DNA from: Candidatus Saccharimonadota bacterium
Lineage (GTDB): Bacteria; Patescibacteriota; Saccharimonadia; Saccharimonadales; Saccharimonadaceae
Assembly: GCA_017514805.1 (NCBI GenBank)
Contig: JAFWIP010000002.1
Span: 1 to 64,000 of the forward strand
Direction of reading: 5' to 3'
DNA length: 64,000 bases
Part shown: in pieces, positions 48,859-57,148 of the stretch
Layout: each line of letters starts with the position of its first letter
How positions within the stretch are numbered: the first letter of the stretch is position 1
Made by a program: the position numbers and the translations under genes
Notes under the pieces: model-generated
Told to the model about the DNA's origin: nothing
The model's database searches: none
What the model saw: only the letters and a program-made list of their open reading frames with translations

Positions 48859-48926
48859 ACTTCCTATCTTATCACAAACCCCCGTTAAAACAAATCCAGA
48901 CTATACTTTTTCCGTACCGTTTATGC

Positions 48927-48932
48927 TAAAAT
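48927..48932 (+). promoter_or_regulatory. -10 box TAAAAT for the wall hydrolase, leaderless
   Basis: TTTATGCTAAAAT (extended -10) ends exactly 6 nt before the ATG at 48939. Confidence 0.7.
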
Positions 48933-48938
48933 TAAATC

Positions 48939-51900
48939 ATGCAAAGGTGGACAAGAGTTAAAATAGCTAAGACTATTTTTCTATGTCTTCTCTCAACGCT
49001 TATAATCTGTCAGCCTAGCCTAGCTTTAAAGGCTGACAAGCTCGATAAATGGGCCAACAACAACATCATGTTCTACGACCCAGACGAATGCGAAGACAAG
49101 GGCACTCAGACCTGTTCCGCCAAGCCTGAAGGCAAAGACATCACGTGGATCGGTGACTCATACACAGAGGGCGCCAAAAGACTAATCAAAAAGAAAATGA
49201 CCGGCGTCGAAATCCATAGCCAATCTAGTAAAGTTTTCGGCCAAGGCGAATCAAGCAATAAAGGCGGTCTTAAAATACTCGAAGAGCTAAAAAACGGCAA
49301 TAAACTCAGAAAGTATGTCGTCATGGCATTAGGTACAAATCTTGACACCTCCGATAAAGACAGCACAGTTAAAGAATTCGAGGAAATGCTCAGCAAGGGC
49401 GGTAAAGATAAAACTTATATCTTAATGAAGCCTTTCACGAAAGACCTTACTTACACTTTCTTTAACGAAGCAGTCGATGAATTCAAGAAAAATAACAGTA
49501 ATGTTCTTGTTGCGGATTGGGAAAGCGCCGCAAAAGACAAAGTAGACGAATTCTTCAAATCAGACTCCATCCACCCAACTGACGGCGACGGCTATCAGAC
49601 TTTCGTCGACACATTTTACAACGCACTTCCTGGCGGCTGTAACGCCAAGAAACTATCAGGCAACAGTAACCTCGAAAAAATCTGGAACTACTACGTAGAC
49701 GCAAATATCGACGGCGTATCTACGAATGCAGCCGTTATTGCCGGGATCCTCGGAAATTACCAACAGGAGTCAGGTTTTAATCCATTCGCAGATAACGGCG
49801 GCGGCCGCTACGGTCTTTTTCAGTCCAATTCACAAGACTTTATTAACACGGTTAATACAAAAACTGGCGGTAATTATTGGGGTAAAACCGACGCACCAGA
49901 AGACGTAAACGATATCGCCATCCAAGCAGAGCTAGACTGGCTTCAAACAAGTAGCGACTACCTAACGTCCATGTGGAACACCTGGTTCGTCGGACAAATC
50001 AACAATGTCGGCGAAGACAAACCAGAAAGTTATGCCGAATTATTTGAGATGGGCGTCGAAGGTGCCGTCGGAGGAAGCGATCCAATATTGGATAGCGGCG
50101 TAAGTCAAATTGAAAATAATAAGTATGGCCAACACTACAAATGGCAAGAAATGGGCCAACGCCGTGACTACGCTCGCGAAATCTACAACACTTACGCTAA
50201 CAATGGCTCCGGCAGCGATTCTTCAAGTAAAACTACTTCATATACTGCACCAAAAACTAACAACCTCCTCGCCGACAAACCATCCTCATTCCCGAGCGTC
50301 GATCAGGCTAAATTAATGGCTACAAACTCGTACACCTGGGAAGACGGCTGGCTAACCGATGGCGTACCAGGAATCGAAAAAGAAGATGTCACACAAGCCG
50401 GAGATCTGGACGAGCATCCAAACACCTACGGCACAACGGACGGAAAGCCAAATAAAATCCTTCTCCACAATACAGAAGGCGAAAGCGTAGGCTATGCCGC
50501 ATATCCAGCCGGAAACAAGTATCCAGCGCACTTCATCGTAGACATTCATAAACAAAAGGGTTACCAAAACTTCCCGATCACTACCACGGCTGCAGCTACC
50601 GTAGCAGCAGACTCATCTTCTGTGCAGATCGAGATCGTCGGCTACGTATGGGGATCAAAACCAGACAATCCATATGACCTCTCAAACTTCTCAGCAAATG
50701 ATTGGGATTATCTAGCCGTGTTACTCGCCGCAATCGCCAGCGAAACCGGAATCCCGCTCACTACAAGCGTAGAATGGGAAGGCAGCAATATTCGCTTCGC
50801 GGGCTCAGACGGTACATATGACACGGCAAAAGAAGAGTTCAAAAACAACATTAAGGGGGTTGTTGGACACATGCATTCGCCAGGCATCGGCAACGATTTA
50901 GGAGATAACCACACCGACCCAGGCAATATTTGGCCATCTCTCGAAGAAGCAATTGCAAGAAATCCTGACGCAAGCAAATTTGGCGGCAACGGCTCAACGA
51001 GTACGACATCCTGCCAAGACGAGGACGACCCAGAAGTTGAAACTGTCGACGGGGAAGATCTCGCCGAAACAGCAGTTGGCATGACATGGCCGGTCCAATC
51101 AAACGGTAATTGCCAGACTAAGAGCGGCGATTGGGTGCCATTCGAAACAAATAAGGAAGACTGTTATGATAATCCAACAGATACTTACCAAGATGAATTT
51201 GACAGGCTCGGCATGAGTGGCAGCCTCCAAGACTGTGGGCATTTCATCGCAACCGTTGTACATTCGCTTGGCGTCGATAACGACTTCCCGAAGGGAGACA
51301 CAGATACACAGGGCGATCATCTGGCAAGCGCAACAGATATTTGGGAAAAGGTTGACGCAAAGAGCGAATCCGATCTCAAACCAGGCGACATCATGTGGTA
51401 TAACGGCCATATCGAAATGTACGTTGGCAGCTATGGCGGCTCTTACGGCAAAATCGCCTCAGCATCAGCCGGCGGCCCAGCCTACGTCGGTATTATCCGC
51501 AGTATGCGCATGGAAAGAAAAGGCGAAGATGCCACCGTCTATCGCTTAATTCCACAAACATCTGGCGGGGGACTTCTTTCCGGCGGAATGACACTCGAGC
51601 AAGCGCAGCAATTCATGGAAGCGTACCGCAGCCTATCGCCTAGAAGCTATCCAAACAGCGAATTCTCAAAGTGGAACATTCCAGATACTACAAGTTGTAC
51701 GTCTGACCTAGAAAACTGTGTTGCATTTAGCTCTTGGTTTATTCATGAATATACTACCGCTAATCTAGGCCTACCACATGGCGGCCAAGTAGTATCTACG
51801 CTATTAAGCAGCAACCAGGGCTTCGTCGATGGCGGCACGACTCCAAAAGTCTATGCAATCTTCAGCGTTAAATCCGGTTCCACCCTCTGTGGTGACTCTC

Positions 51901-52085
51901 CATGCGGACATACCGGCGTAGTCCTCGGTATCGATACGACGGCAAACAAGATTATTATTGGCGAAGCAGGCTGTTCAGCATCATATGACTGGACAAACGC
52001 TCACGAATACGACTTGTCTACATATACAAGCGGTGCATACACTTACGCCTACACTGACAATATTCGTAAGACAGGAAAGAATTAA
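48939..52085 (+). CDS. Secreted multidomain cell-wall hydrolase (SGNH, lysozyme-like, amidase, two Cys peptidase domains)
   Basis: A 1048-residue protein with a signal peptide (1-30, ending SLALKA). Residues 69-230 are an SGNH hydrolase, with WIGDSYTEG (D73, S74) and DSIHPT (D209, H212). Residues 243-420 resemble the phage tail lysozyme domain, with the candidate Glu277 in NYQQESGFNP. Residues 500-680 match Amidase_2, with zinc ligand candidates H510, H644 and H658 in HTDPG. Residues 755-870 are NlpC/P60-like (C766, H824). Residues 910-1040 are a CHAP domain (C927, H991, E1009). Ser/Gly/Thr linkers join the parts. Together they could cut glycan, amide and peptide bonds and remove acyl groups. 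The start is leaderless. A single-pass protein gene follows by 1 bp. Confidence 0.85.
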   Translation: MQRWTRVKIAKTIFLCLLSTLIICQPSLALKADKLDKWANNNIMFYDPDECEDKGTQTCSAKPEGKDITWIGDSYTEGAKRLIKKKMTGVEIHSQSSKVFGQGESSNKGGLKILEELKNGNKLRKYVVMALGTNLDTSDKDSTVKEFEEMLSKGGKDKTYILMKPFTKDLTYTFFNEAVDEFKKNNSNVLVADWESAAKDKVDEFFKSDSIHPTDGDGYQTFVDTFYNALPGGCNAKKLSGNSNLEKIWNYYVDANIDGVSTNAAVIAGILGNYQQESGFNPFADNGGGRYGLFQSNSQDFINTVNTKTGGNYWGKTDAPEDVNDIAIQAELDWLQTSSDYLTSMWNTWFVGQINNVGEDKPESYAELFEMGVEGAVGGSDPILDSGVSQIENNKYGQHYKWQEMGQRRDYAREIYNTYANNGSGSDSSSKTTSYTAPKTNNLLADKPSSFPSVDQAKLMATNSYTWEDGWLTDGVPGIEKEDVTQAGDLDEHPNTYGTTDGKPNKILLHNTEGESVGYAAYPAGNKYPAHFIVDIHKQKGYQNFPITTTAAATVAADSSSVQIEIVGYVWGSKPDNPYDLSNFSANDWDYLAVLLAAIASETGIPLTTSVEWEGSNIRFAGSDGTYDTAKEEFKNNIKGVVGHMHSPGIGNDLGDNHTDPGNIWPSLEEAIARNPDASKFGGNGSTSTTSCQDEDDPEVETVDGEDLAETAVGMTWPVQSNGNCQTKSGDWVPFETNKEDCYDNPTDTYQDEFDRLGMSGSLQDCGHFIATVVHSLGVDNDFPKGDTDTQGDHLASATDIWEKVDAKSESDLKPGDIMWYNGHIEMYVGSYGGSYGKIASASAGGPAYVGIIRSMRMERKGEDATVYRLIPQTSGGGLLSGGMTLEQAQQFMEAYRSLSPRSYPNSEFSKWNIPDTTSCTSDLENCVAFSSWFIHEYTTANLGLPHGGQVVSTLLSSNQGFVDGGTTPKVYAIFSVKSGSTLCGDSPCGHTGVVLGIDTTANKIIIGEAGCSASYDWTNAHEYDLSTYTSGAYTYAYTDNIRKTGKN

Positions 52086-52086
52086 T

Positions 52087-52851
52087 ATGAGAAACTTAAA
52101 AGAATACCTCAACGAATCCTCAGAAAACAGAAGAAGATTCATAAAAATCGTTATCTTAGTCTCTCTTCTATTGTTTATTAGCATAATCGCAGTACTATCT
52201 TTTATCTCTCTATTGCCAATCGAAGACGAATTGAGAATAGATAATCTGCCTAGCCTAATTAGCGATATGCCAGATAAAAAACGTCATTCAGTCTACCGAA
52301 CACTCTATCGAATGGTCGATCAATACGTCGAGACTCCACCGCTATCCGGAGGCCTCATTCGCAAAGAAACCTTAGAGCATCACAACAACGGCGACACAAG
52401 CAATGGCCATTTCATTGTTGATATCGAATCAATTCGCCAATCATATGAAATTCATTACGAGTGGTCAAAGAAAGAGAACGAACAAGACATTTCGTCCACC
52501 TCCGTTACGATAGACTGTATTTCAGATAAGTCACTCATGATATACGACGACTTTGGCTGCAAACCAAGTAATCAGTATGATCCAGAATCAAAAGTTAGCC
52601 CATACGTCTTCATGACCTCCTATCTCCCATATACCGAAAAAATGTCTAATGGCGAGCTACTCTACATCTACCTTCGCACATATTTGAATACCAAAAATTA
52701 CTTCGAGCTCTCCGCAAATGACACTTGCGGCAACAAAGCACTCTTAGATGAAGTATTCGAAAGATCTCAAAAATTCTTCGCCTCGCACGACGTAAAGCTA
52801 GAAGAACTCGATTATAAAATTCGCGACCTCTGTAACGGCGGCGCGCATTAA
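52087..52851 (+). CDS. Hypothetical single-pass protein downstream of the wall hydrolase
   Basis: A 254-residue protein starting at the ATG 1 bp after the hydrolase stop codon (TAA-T-ATG), so translation is coupled. A basic N-terminus leads into a strong membrane helix at about 20-44, and the remaining 210 residues should be outside. That part has three to four Cys that may form disulfides (CISDKS, GCKPS, NDTCGN, RDLCNGG). The family is not recognised. As the only partner in the operon, it may be an immunity protein, inhibitor, chaperone or membrane dock for the hydrolase. Confidence 0.6.
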   Translation: MRNLKEYLNESSENRRRFIKIVILVSLLLFISIIAVLSFISLLPIEDELRIDNLPSLISDMPDKKRHSVYRTLYRMVDQYVETPPLSGGLIRKETLEHHNNGDTSNGHFIVDIESIRQSYEIHYEWSKKENEQDISSTSVTIDCISDKSLMIYDDFGCKPSNQYDPESKVSPYVFMTSYLPYTEKMSNGELLYIYLRTYLNTKNYFELSANDTCGNKALLDEVFERSQKFFASHDVKLEELDYKIRDLCNGGAH

Positions 52852-53447: not shown

Positions 53448-54179
53448 ATGGCAGATAAGCAGAAGAAATCCGGACTCAAACCAAAACTTCAAAAAGCCAA
53501 GGCAAAATTCTTTAAAACTTACTACAGCAACCCTGCAAAAGATTTAAAGATTATTGTCACTACTGGCGCAAACGGGCGGGATATCACTGCGCATTACTTA
53601 CAAGAGATCCTAAAAGGTCGCGACAAGCGCACGGGCCTCGTAATCAACCCAAAAAGCACCTCAGATCTCTATAAACAATTATTCAAGATTTGGAAGACTG
53701 GCACCGATTATGCCGTCGTCTCGGCTAATAGCCACGCCCTCGCTAATCATCTATTCTATGGCATGCCAATCTATGCCGCCGTCATTACCGACGATATCAA
53801 TAGCTCTTCTATTGACTCTCAATCGGATGACGAGCGCGCCATTCTATTCAACACAAAGCCAGACTTCAGCATTCTTAATCGCGATGATTCGAATTATCGT
53901 ATCTTCGTTGAATACCCGAGCAAAACCGCAACTTTCTCTTACGGCAATGATCGCAGCGCCGATCTAAAAGTTACCCCAGGCAAGATTTATAAGATGGGCG
54001 CCGAAGCTACTCTTACCTACAACAGTGAACGTTTCGAAGTAGCTACCTATGTTACTGACCCAGCCGCTAGCTTATATATGGGCGCCGCTGCCATGACCGC
54101 TTTTGCTCTCGGTTTTAAATCCGAAGAAATCGTCGACGGCATCGCAAACTACGAACCAAAACAACCAGCAGAGAAATGA
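53448..54179 (+). CDS. Degenerate MurE-like Mur ligase central domain
   Basis: A 243-residue protein that aligns with the central domain of Mur ligases and of the MurE at 55901-57148. VTTGANGRDITAHYL matches VTGTNGKTTT, but the Walker A Lys-Thr is changed to Arg-Asp. VVSANSHALANHLFYGMPIYAAVITDD matches VLELTSHALAQHRDLGIPIEIAVMTNV. The C-terminal ligase domain and the N-terminal substrate domain are missing. ATP-dependent ligation is therefore unlikely. It could be a regulator or partner of MurE, or a binding protein for a wall precursor. It overlaps the next gene by 4 bp and has a leaderless promoter. Confidence 0.75.
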   Translation: MADKQKKSGLKPKLQKAKAKFFKTYYSNPAKDLKIIVTTGANGRDITAHYLQEILKGRDKRTGLVINPKSTSDLYKQLFKIWKTGTDYAVVSANSHALANHLFYGMPIYAAVITDDINSSSIDSQSDDERAILFNTKPDFSILNRDDSNYRIFVEYPSKTATFSYGNDRSADLKVTPGKIYKMGAEATLTYNSERFEVATYVTDPAASLYMGAAAMTAFALGFKSEEIVDGIANYEPKQPAEK

Positions 54180-55027
54180 TCAATCAAAAACTCCTAGTAT
54201 CAGGCGCAGACTTTTTTGCGGACGAATTCGAAATCAATCCTTACTACAATAAGGAGCAAATTGACGTTAAAAAAGCTTGTGCCGAACATGCCGAAATCCT
54301 TAAGTGTTTTGAGCAAGCTGGCATCGAACTAATAAAAGTTGCAGCACCAGAAGGCTGCCAAGATGGCGTATATACCGCTAACTGGGCTCTCATCAAAGAC
54401 GGCGTCGCCATCATGTCTCGCCTTCCAGAAGCTCGAAAAGCCGAGGAGCCTTACGCTAAGGCCCAGCTTCAATCCCTCGGCTATAAATGCTATGACGCAC
54501 CAAAAGACCTTCTATTCTCAGGGCAGGGAGATTCTCTTCGCTGTGGCAAATATCTTTTTGCTGGCCGCGGCTATCGCTCCGAACCAGCCGCTCAGGCTTT
54601 CGCCGCTAAGACACTCGGCCTAGAACTTATTCAACTTCATACAAAACCGCAGCTAAACCCAGATGGCACCGAGCATATCAATCCGTTCACTAATCATGCC
54701 GATAGCTTCTAGTACGACCTCGATCTCGCACTCTCGATTATCGACGATCACACCATCGCTTACTGCCCAATGGCTTTCGATGACGCCTCGCGCGCTCAAC
54801 TCGAAGCCATTAACGACCTAGACAAAATCATCGTCGATTTCAACGAATGCACGGAGGGCTTTGCCTGCAATCTCGTCAGTACCGGCAAACATGTCATTAT
54901 GTCTAACAAAGCACCAAAACTTCAAGCTGAACTTGAAGCACGCGGCCTCACTTGCCTCACCCCAAATGTCACCGAATTAAAGAAGGGTGGCGGCTATATT
55001 CGTTGCGTTAGCCTATGGCTAAGTTAG
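54176..55027 (+). pseudogene. Amidinotransferase / dimethylarginine dimethylaminohydrolase-like gene interrupted by TAG
   Basis: One frame of 283 sense codons is broken only by a TAG at 54710-54712. The first part (178 residues) has PEGCQDGVYTANWALI and LFSGQGDSLRCGKYLFAG, typical of the DDAH/arginine deiminase fold. After the TAG the frame goes on as YDLDLALSIIDD, FNECTEGFACNLV and GGGYIRCVSLWL, which holds the expected catalytic Cys. TAG could derive from TAC (Tyr) by one base. So this is a nonsense mutation, a base-calling error or a recoded codon. If only the first part is made, the active Cys is lost. It may act on arginine or a guanidino compound. It overlaps the pseudo-MurE gene by 4 bp. 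Confidence 0.75.
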
Positions 55028-55871: not shown

Positions 55872-55902
55872 AAAAATATCTCCCATAAGGGAGATATTTT
55901 TT
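55872..55902. terminator. Bidirectional intrinsic terminator
   Basis: AAAAATATCTCCC/GGGAGATATTTTT stem between converging genes. Confidence 0.88.
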
Positions 55903-57148
55903 ATATCTTTTTCAAAGCTTTCTTTATTTCGTCTAGCTCATAATAATCGTGAGCACCGTCTGCACGCTCAATCGTCTTCTCGTTGCCTTTGCCGAGGAAG
56001 AGCACTGTATCGCCTTTCTTAGCCATCTTGCAGCACTCTAGAATCGCGCTAGGACGATCATGCACCATGATGAGATCTTTACCATCTTTCTTACCACTCT
56101 TGCGCGCACCAGCCGCAATCATTTCAAGAATCTCTTCTCCTGGCGTGTCGCGATCATCTTCCTCAGTTAGCACGACAATATCGGCATACTTACCAGCAAT
56201 TTCCCCCATCGGCTCACGCTTCGACGGATCACGTCTACCGCCAGCCGAACCAAACATTACGATCAATCGACCTTCGGTCGCCTTTTTCATATCTGGCAAT
56301 AGTTTTTCGAAGGCATCAGGCGTATGAGCGTAATCCATAATTGCCGTAAACTTCTGCTTACCATCAATCTTTACCATGCGACCTTCTACCTCGGTTAGCG
56401 CATAAATGCCATCCACAATTTGTTTATCGCTCAGGCCCAAGCGACGCCCAACCGCAACGCAGGCTAGGGAATTAGAAACATTAAATTGTCCGGCAATCCT
56501 CGTCTTTACTTTTAGTCCATCATCAAGCTCATATTCTACACCGTCTGGACGAAGCTTAACCTTCTTTGCGCGCAAATCACCGCCCTTAATTCCATAAGTC
56601 GCATACTCAGAAACATCCTTCTCAAAGAACTCCGCCGAAGGATCATCAGCATTAATAATGCCATACTTTGCCTTTTTAAACATCTTGCGCTTCGCGTCAC
56701 GATAACGTTCGAAGGTCTTATGGTAATCTAGATGTTCATGCGTCACATTCGTCATTACCGCAATCTCAATCGGAATACCCAAATCTCTATGCTGTGCCAA
56801 AGCATGGCTCGTCAGCTCTAATACTAGATATTTTGCGCCAGAATCGACAATTGTCTTAATGCGTTTATTCAATAAACTAACATCAACTGTCGTCATATGT
56901 TCTTTTTGTTCATGAATCTCGTCAACACCCCAACCAACCGTCGTCATTACGCCTGCCTTGTAACCAGCGTGGTTTAGCATCTTCCAAATCATAAACGATG
57001 TCGTCGTTTTGCCATTCGTGCCAGTAACGCCAATTACTGTAATCTTACGCCCAGGAAAACCTTTCAACGTACCAAATAATATCGATTTACCAATATGATA
57101 AGGAACAACTGCCGAATCATAAAACGGAATTTTTTCTTTCATACCCAT
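55901..57148 (-). CDS. murE: UDP-N-acetylmuramyl-tripeptide synthetase MurE (no N-terminal domain)
   Basis: A 415-residue Mur ligase that adds the third amino acid to UDP-MurNAc-dipeptide. VIGVTGTNGKTTTSFMIW is the ATP site, VLELTSHALAQHR and TNVTHEHLDYH follow, then AGQFNVSNSLACVAVG, EGRMVKI, DYAHTPDAFEKLL and FGSAGGRRDPSKREPMG of the C-terminal domain. The amino-acid motif that reads DNPR in meso-diaminopimelate enzymes is DDRDTPGEEI here, so the residue added is unclear. The N-terminal uridine-binding domain is shortened. Its ATG is leaderless. Confidence 0.9.
   Translation of the reverse strand: MGMKEKIPFYDSAVVPYHIGKSILFGTLKGFPGRKITVIGVTGTNGKTTTSFMIWKMLNHAGYKAGVMTTVGWGVDEIHEQKEHMTTVDVSLLNKRIKTIVDSGAKYLVLELTSHALAQHRDLGIPIEIAVMTNVTHEHLDYHKTFERYRDAKRKMFKKAKYGIINADDPSAEFFEKDVSEYATYGIKGGDLRAKKVKLRPDGVEYELDDGLKVKTRIAGQFNVSNSLACVAVGRRLGLSDKQIVDGIYALTEVEGRMVKIDGKQKFTAIMDYAHTPDAFEKLLPDMKKATEGRLIVMFGSAGGRRDPSKREPMGEIAGKYADIVVLTEEDDRDTPGEEILEMIAAGARKSGKKDGKDLIMVHDRPSAILECCKMAKKGDTVLFLGKGNEKTIERADGAHDYYELDEIKKALKKI

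Follow-up and report, generated by a model that had tools for sequence, protein, structure and literature searches.

It is an open question how epibiotic Saccharibacteria cross the host wall and which role their essential type IV secretion system has (PMC11665869). The Saccharibacterial type IV secretion locus lies near dnaA and is essential for the epibiotic growth of Southlakia; in that organism, the genes reported as essential include homologues of lysozyme and peptidase that follow virB4 (PMC10633639, PMC12102498). Comparable enzymes are the VirB1-like hydrolases of Gram-positive systems, namely, PrgK of pCF10, TraG of pIP501, Orf14 of Tn916, and CwlT, which combine a glycan cutter with a CHAP or NlpC domain on one exported protein and for which three domains at most have been published. 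PrgK, functionally the best-studied multidomain relative, has its degrading activity in the middle domain alone, and in Tn916, Orf15, Orf14, and Orf13 are the VirB6, VirB1, and VirB8 components (PMC12857230).

Here, we analyze a protein encoded in a 64,000-nucleotide stretch of a Candidatus Saccharimonadota contig (the window), for which a sequence-only reading had proposed a secreted wall hydrolase with five catalytic domains (Table 1). It resembles the VirB1-like enzymes in pairing a glycan cutter with CHAP and NlpC-like modules, yet it has five modules, adding SGNH and Amidase_2; it carries a conserved box directly after the signal peptide; and no VirB4 or VirB6 gene adjoins it. On balance, we favor the view that it is a surface-tethered wall-opening enzyme that evolved from a VirB1-type secretion hydrolase.

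Table 1. Features of the hydrolase and its downstream gene, in window coordinates
Feature	Position	Strand	Residues or remarks
1048-aa five-module exported wall hydrolase	48939..52085	+	whole ORF; without internal stops
Sec signal peptide, aa 1-30	48939..49028	+	hydrophobic core, SLA cleavage-like site; relatives share layout
N-terminal box KWANNNIMFYDPDEC, aa 37-51	49047..49091	+	constant in family regardless of next module
SGNH/GDSL module, OatA-like, aa 61-235	49119..49643	+	S74, N134, D209, H212
Phage_lysozyme2 (phi29 gp13-like) module, aa 236-427	49644..50219	+	E277
Amidase_2 module, aa 463-675	50325..50963	+	H510, H644, D660
NlpC/P60-like module, aa 716-849	51084..51485	+	C766, H824
CHAP module, aa 877-1042	51567..52064	+	C927, H991
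Type W partner gene, 254-aa single-pass membrane protein	52087..52851	+	starts 1 nt after hydrolase stop codon

The signal peptide supports the proposed secretion of the protein, in whose sequence we saw no lipobox, LPXTG motif, or further transmembrane segment. Single-sequence searches of Pfam, PHROGs, and the PDB detected only the lysozyme (Phage_lysozyme2, PF18013; residues 244-419; E = 2e-9; 38.1 bits against a curated cutoff of 28.2) and the CHAP module (PF05257; residues 925-1008; E = 1e-7; 32.5 bits against a curated cutoff of 26), and a search of NCBIfam gave no matches. Since the SGNH, amidase, and NlpC modules are strongly diverged and were thus missed by single-sequence Pfam, relatives were collected and family profiles were built for the modules. 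Compared with the PDB, the SGNH profile best matched 6vjp/5ug1 (E = 4e-24), the extracellular, C-terminal SGNH acetyltransferase domain of OatA. The class blocks GDS, GxN, and DxxH are present with their Ser, Asn, Asp, and His, and the window module keeps the catalytic S/D/H and N of that domain. The lysozyme profile best matched phi29 gp13 (3csq; E = 4e-19). The amidase profile matched XlyA (3hmb; E = 8e-5), and the NlpC profile matched MepS/Spr (2k1g; E = 2e-4); that of CHAP gave a weak additional match to lysin L2. Because the lysozyme and NlpC rows came out misaligned when domain fragments were included in an alignment of the full length, AlphaFold modeling was limited to the amidase-NlpC half (residues 454-872; mean pLDDT, 80). 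The model matched Staphylococcus aureus AmiA with a probability of 1.00 (E = 2e-4), and the PlyL and Ph2119 amidase folds were also matched at 1.00. NlpC alone gave a weak match in Foldseek, with 8auc at rank 29, and the Pfam NlpC/P60 (PF00877) scores of its relatives all fell below the cutoff. All five proposed modules are therefore supported, two by Pfam and three by family profiles, with the NlpC/P60 assignment being tentative.

The sequence-only reading had also named catalytic residues for each module; the catalytic residues are intact, with one reassignment in the amidase. Across family members, the SGNH positions S74, N134, D209, and H212 are kept in 38, 37, 33, and 36 of 39 sequences, respectively; lysozyme E277 is kept in 30/30, NlpC-like C766 and H824 in 21/21, and CHAP C927 and H991 in 16/17. 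In the NlpC-like module, we recognized this Cys-His pair of the papain-like site but not its third polar residue. The amidase pair named, H510/H658, is probably wrong in its second residue: H658 occupies the position of AmpD Lys162, is a His in just 9 of 15 members, and is an Ala in two relatives (L041 and L067) that retain the zinc ligands. Judging by the AmpD/T7-lysozyme motif, the ligands are most likely H510, H644 (GHMH), and D660 (TDPG). In four accessory relatives (L089, L059, L098, and L113), the amidase zinc ligands are lost, and L089 lacks the SGNH nucleophile as well, which suggests that such modules are pseudo-enzymes. Five active sites need not equal five activities either, because PrgK degrades with its middle domain alone. 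The SGNH module could remove acyl groups or perhaps transfer them, since its closest likeness is the extracellular acetyltransferase domain of OatA. Yet OatA has a fused membrane acyltransferase-3 domain that feeds acetyl groups, and the lack of such a fusion in the window protein leads us to favor an esterase over a transferase.

A box profile and family search found two family hydrolases in this genome, the window copy and a 597-aa LYS-SGNH-NLP paralogue 33 kb downstream on the same contig (G000:C11:85043-86836). Directly before the paralogue come genes for an ATPase of VirB4-like type (TraG P-loop; E = 1e-28) and for a membrane protein of 927 aa that has no Pfam match and is VirB6-like by position and hydrophobic segments; downstream of the paralogue lie a membrane protein gene, recF, dnaN, and dnaA. 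The genus has 29 such core copies in the order VirB6-like gene, hydrolase, type C partner, typically with 4-nt overlaps. As in the Gram-positive systems, the core paralogue has a VirB6-like gene on one side and a gene for a membrane protein on the other, and it shares with the essential Southlakia locus (SEML1_0006-0019) a Saccharibacterial type IV setting with lysozyme and peptidase genes. Reports on Southlakia mention no box, partner family, accessory copies, or module shuffling. Because no VirB4 cluster surrounds the window copy, we classify it as paralogous to a VirB1-like protein rather than as VirB1 itself. The position of the core copy could also indicate that these enzymes remodel the epibiont's own wall, opening it locally in VirB1 fashion for assembly of a secretion channel or surface structure. 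The gene order is that of VirB4, VirB6, VirB1, and VirB8 in orf16-orf13 of Tn916, where we take orf16 to be VirB4, and Mur ligase genes within the window suggest that the epibiont has a wall of its own. Yet we judge this explanation somewhat unlikely, given that the window copy lies away from secretion genes, that its five modules exceed the three or fewer of published VirB1-like proteins, and that accessory copies swap modules as described below.

One feature that unites the family is the box, with the consensus N-[GN]-I-x-[YF]-Y-[ND]-P (NNIxFYDP), which directly follows the signal peptide in nearly all members. We detected it in 75 of the 93 family ORFs, which were picked by catalytic domains without regard to the box, and it spans all arrangements, compared with 0 of 663 other neighboring ORFs. 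Most family ORFs that lack it encode VirB6-CHAP fusions or unrelated proteins with a single domain, are broken, or have a variant of the box. When the search with the box profile was widened to samples of the class and the phylum, matches were confined to genomes of the same family. We rejected the box as a tag of other exported cargo, since its profile (A10) matches just the two hydrolases in this genome.

The second constant element is the gene downstream. Among the 72 box-bearing hydrolases that have a downstream gene in the contig, 69 are next to one for a W- or C-type membrane protein with a single pass, and 22 accessory loci show the order C, hydrolase, W. Were the enzyme a free digestive lysin that liberates wall fragments as food, with no attachment or secretion role, its signal peptide and broad range of predicted bond specificities would be in keeping. 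This seems quite improbable, however, given that a conserved box and a membrane protein encoded alongside indicate an enzyme held at the surface and that the protein is kin to the secretion-locus copy. The window partner gave a good model (mean pLDDT, 85.8), which comprises a membrane helix and, outside the membrane, two small alpha+beta domains. Foldseek returned no confident fold match, with VirB8-like OrfG and TraM at E values of 0.76-1.1 and a probability of ~0.1, and sequence comparison of the partner with VirB8 gave no match. Of 17 C-type partners, 13 include a PEGA domain, and comparison of the W and C profiles revealed just one short shared stretch. We nevertheless regard the partner as a VirB8 candidate because orf16-orf13 of Tn916, in which Orf13 is VirB8, show the same succession of VirB4, VirB6, hydrolase, and partner. 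VirB8 is a single-pass membrane protein with an NTF2-like extracellular domain, and the topology and locus position of the partner fit. Types W and C together may be the VirB8 component that published surveys missed in Saccharibacteria.

Strict pairing of hydrolase and partner would likewise be expected if the hydrolase were secreted to lyse competitors or the host, with the membrane protein encoded downstream shielding the producer. The partner evolves fast (15-30% identity), and its type tracks module content: W-type partners accompany 48/50 hydrolases with AMI, CHAP, C39, or M23 modules versus 2/13 without them (Fisher P = 9e-9, a post hoc test). However, in phylogenetically independent pairs this association comes to 3:0 or fewer (P = 0.25), and its significance is lost. 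Moreover, a second partner-like gene lies upstream at many loci (the 22 noted above), the secretion locus has a fixed partner as well, and the fold search with the partner model recognized no inhibitor fold. A hydrolase-inhibitor pair appears unlikely, although we count it, like remodeling of the epibiont's own wall, as a live rival.

The family is a mosaic. Of 101 related genomes, 55 contain family members, among them the genome studied here and all but one of its 44 same-genus relatives (43); these are metagenome-assembled genomes, some incomplete, with mechanical gene calls. A first scan of a contig database with the window protein as the query gave no relatives, but an alignment of core copies did retrieve them, and those with names are Candidatus Saccharibacteria metagenome-assembled genomes, many from ruminant and other gut samples. 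These sequences support a Saccharibacterial origin of the window protein. Among Saccharibacteria of one family, about 11 module types combine into 48 arrangements by our count, six-module proteins included; the count covers all domain-bearing ORFs, depends on the module profiles built here, and includes a few fragments, truncated genes, or single-domain proteins. Further module types are glucosaminidase, GX92 (SleB-like in appearance, by eye), M23, C39, SLT-like, and 3D, with VanY, GH3, and Amidase_3 in one distant member. In another family of the order, a 1200-aa secretion-locus hydrolase comprises lysozyme, SGNH, GH3, Amidase_3, and NlpC modules (L119:5113-8715, minus strand) and is preceded by an SGNH and VanY protein (L119:8728-11001, minus strand).

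The order SGNH-LYS-AMI-NLP-CHAP, which had been thought undescribed, occurs in the window protein alone among the sampled genomes, but wall hydrolases with several catalytic modules are frequent in this lineage. The novelty therefore lies in the family and its organization rather than in the window order. Five-module proteins are common, and six modules occur in two proteins, both from one genome. The nearest orders are SGNH-LYS-AMI-CHAP (in G013 and G301) and SGNH-LYS-GX92-NLP-CHAP (seven cases). Module by module, the best matches of the window protein stem from different genomes and arrangements, and the module trees conflict: its SGNH module clusters with SGNH-LYS-GX92-NLP-CHAP proteins, and its CHAP module with VirB6-like fusions and other arrangements. 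Likewise, LYS-SGNH-GX92-M23-CHAP proteins split between two separate supported CHAP clades. Several VirB6-like secretion-locus proteins bear CHAP on their C-terminal side (L046:810-4124, L062, L066, L074, and L088), mostly close to the window CHAP. This shuffling bears on the target. The epibiont's own wall should be near-uniform in the genus, yet accessory copies swap their cutting modules freely between species. Because the cutting modules differ between close species, we favor the host wall as a plausible target.

Phage enzymes offer further likenesses. The tail lysozyme phi29 gp13 also joins a lysozyme to a peptidase, and phage endolysins with CHAP and Amidase_2 share two module types and multi-catalytic wall lysis. 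Yet gp13 is a virion part, whereas the window protein is chromosomal and exported by a signal peptide; compared with the endolysins, it has more modules, a signal peptide, and a partner gene, and no cell-wall-binding domain was recognized. That the gene itself is a phage endolysin or prophage remnant, as the tail-type lysozyme module might indicate, is barely conceivable: a search of 2.9 million viral contigs with the core copy found no relative, chromosomal housekeeping genes flank the gene on both sides, and the protein combines a signal peptide with a family-wide partner gene.

We thus return to a tethered wall opener as the preferred explanation. The mosaic family would descend from the VirB1-like hydrolase encoded in the type IV secretion locus of Saccharibacteria. 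Sec would export the window hydrolase, which would stay at the surface of the Saccharibacterium, probably retained by the NNIxFYDP box and the downstream single-pass membrane protein, as their co-occurrence suggests. At the contact site, the predicted modules would attack several bonds of one wall polymer: SGNH would alter O-acyl groups, most likely stripping them so that the lysozyme can act; the lysozyme would cut glycan; Amidase_2 would cleave the MurNAc-L-Ala bond; and NlpC and CHAP would cleave peptides of the stem or cross-bridge. The target would most likely be the wall of the host bacterium, and frequent module swapping would fit host-specific wall chemistry. More tentatively, the family may form a polymorphic system in which a fixed leader box and a dedicated partner are combined with exchangeable cutters. 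These would open walls in a host-matched manner and be linked to the type IV machine, their module content would help set host range, and the partner family would include the VirB8 reported missing. One export or tether tag and one partner with swapped cutters would connect gene content with host wall type in a testable way, and hydrolase and partner are candidate parts for a secretion system in which VirB1 and VirB8 were reported hard to find.

Finally, the surroundings of the gene show several minor features. At 48890-48941, a TATGCTAAAAT-like element lies about 10 bases upstream of the hydrolase start codon, with no clear Shine-Dalgarno sequence, hinting at a leaderless transcript. On the plus strand, 53448-54179 encodes a small protein with a Mur ligase middle domain alone (E = 2.8e-7), and a fuller Mur ligase is encoded on the opposite strand at 55901-57148. 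Between them, 54176-55027 (plus strand) is a dimethylarginine dimethylaminohydrolase/amidinotransferase-like gene interrupted by one in-frame TAG stop codon (54710-54712) in an otherwise open frame.
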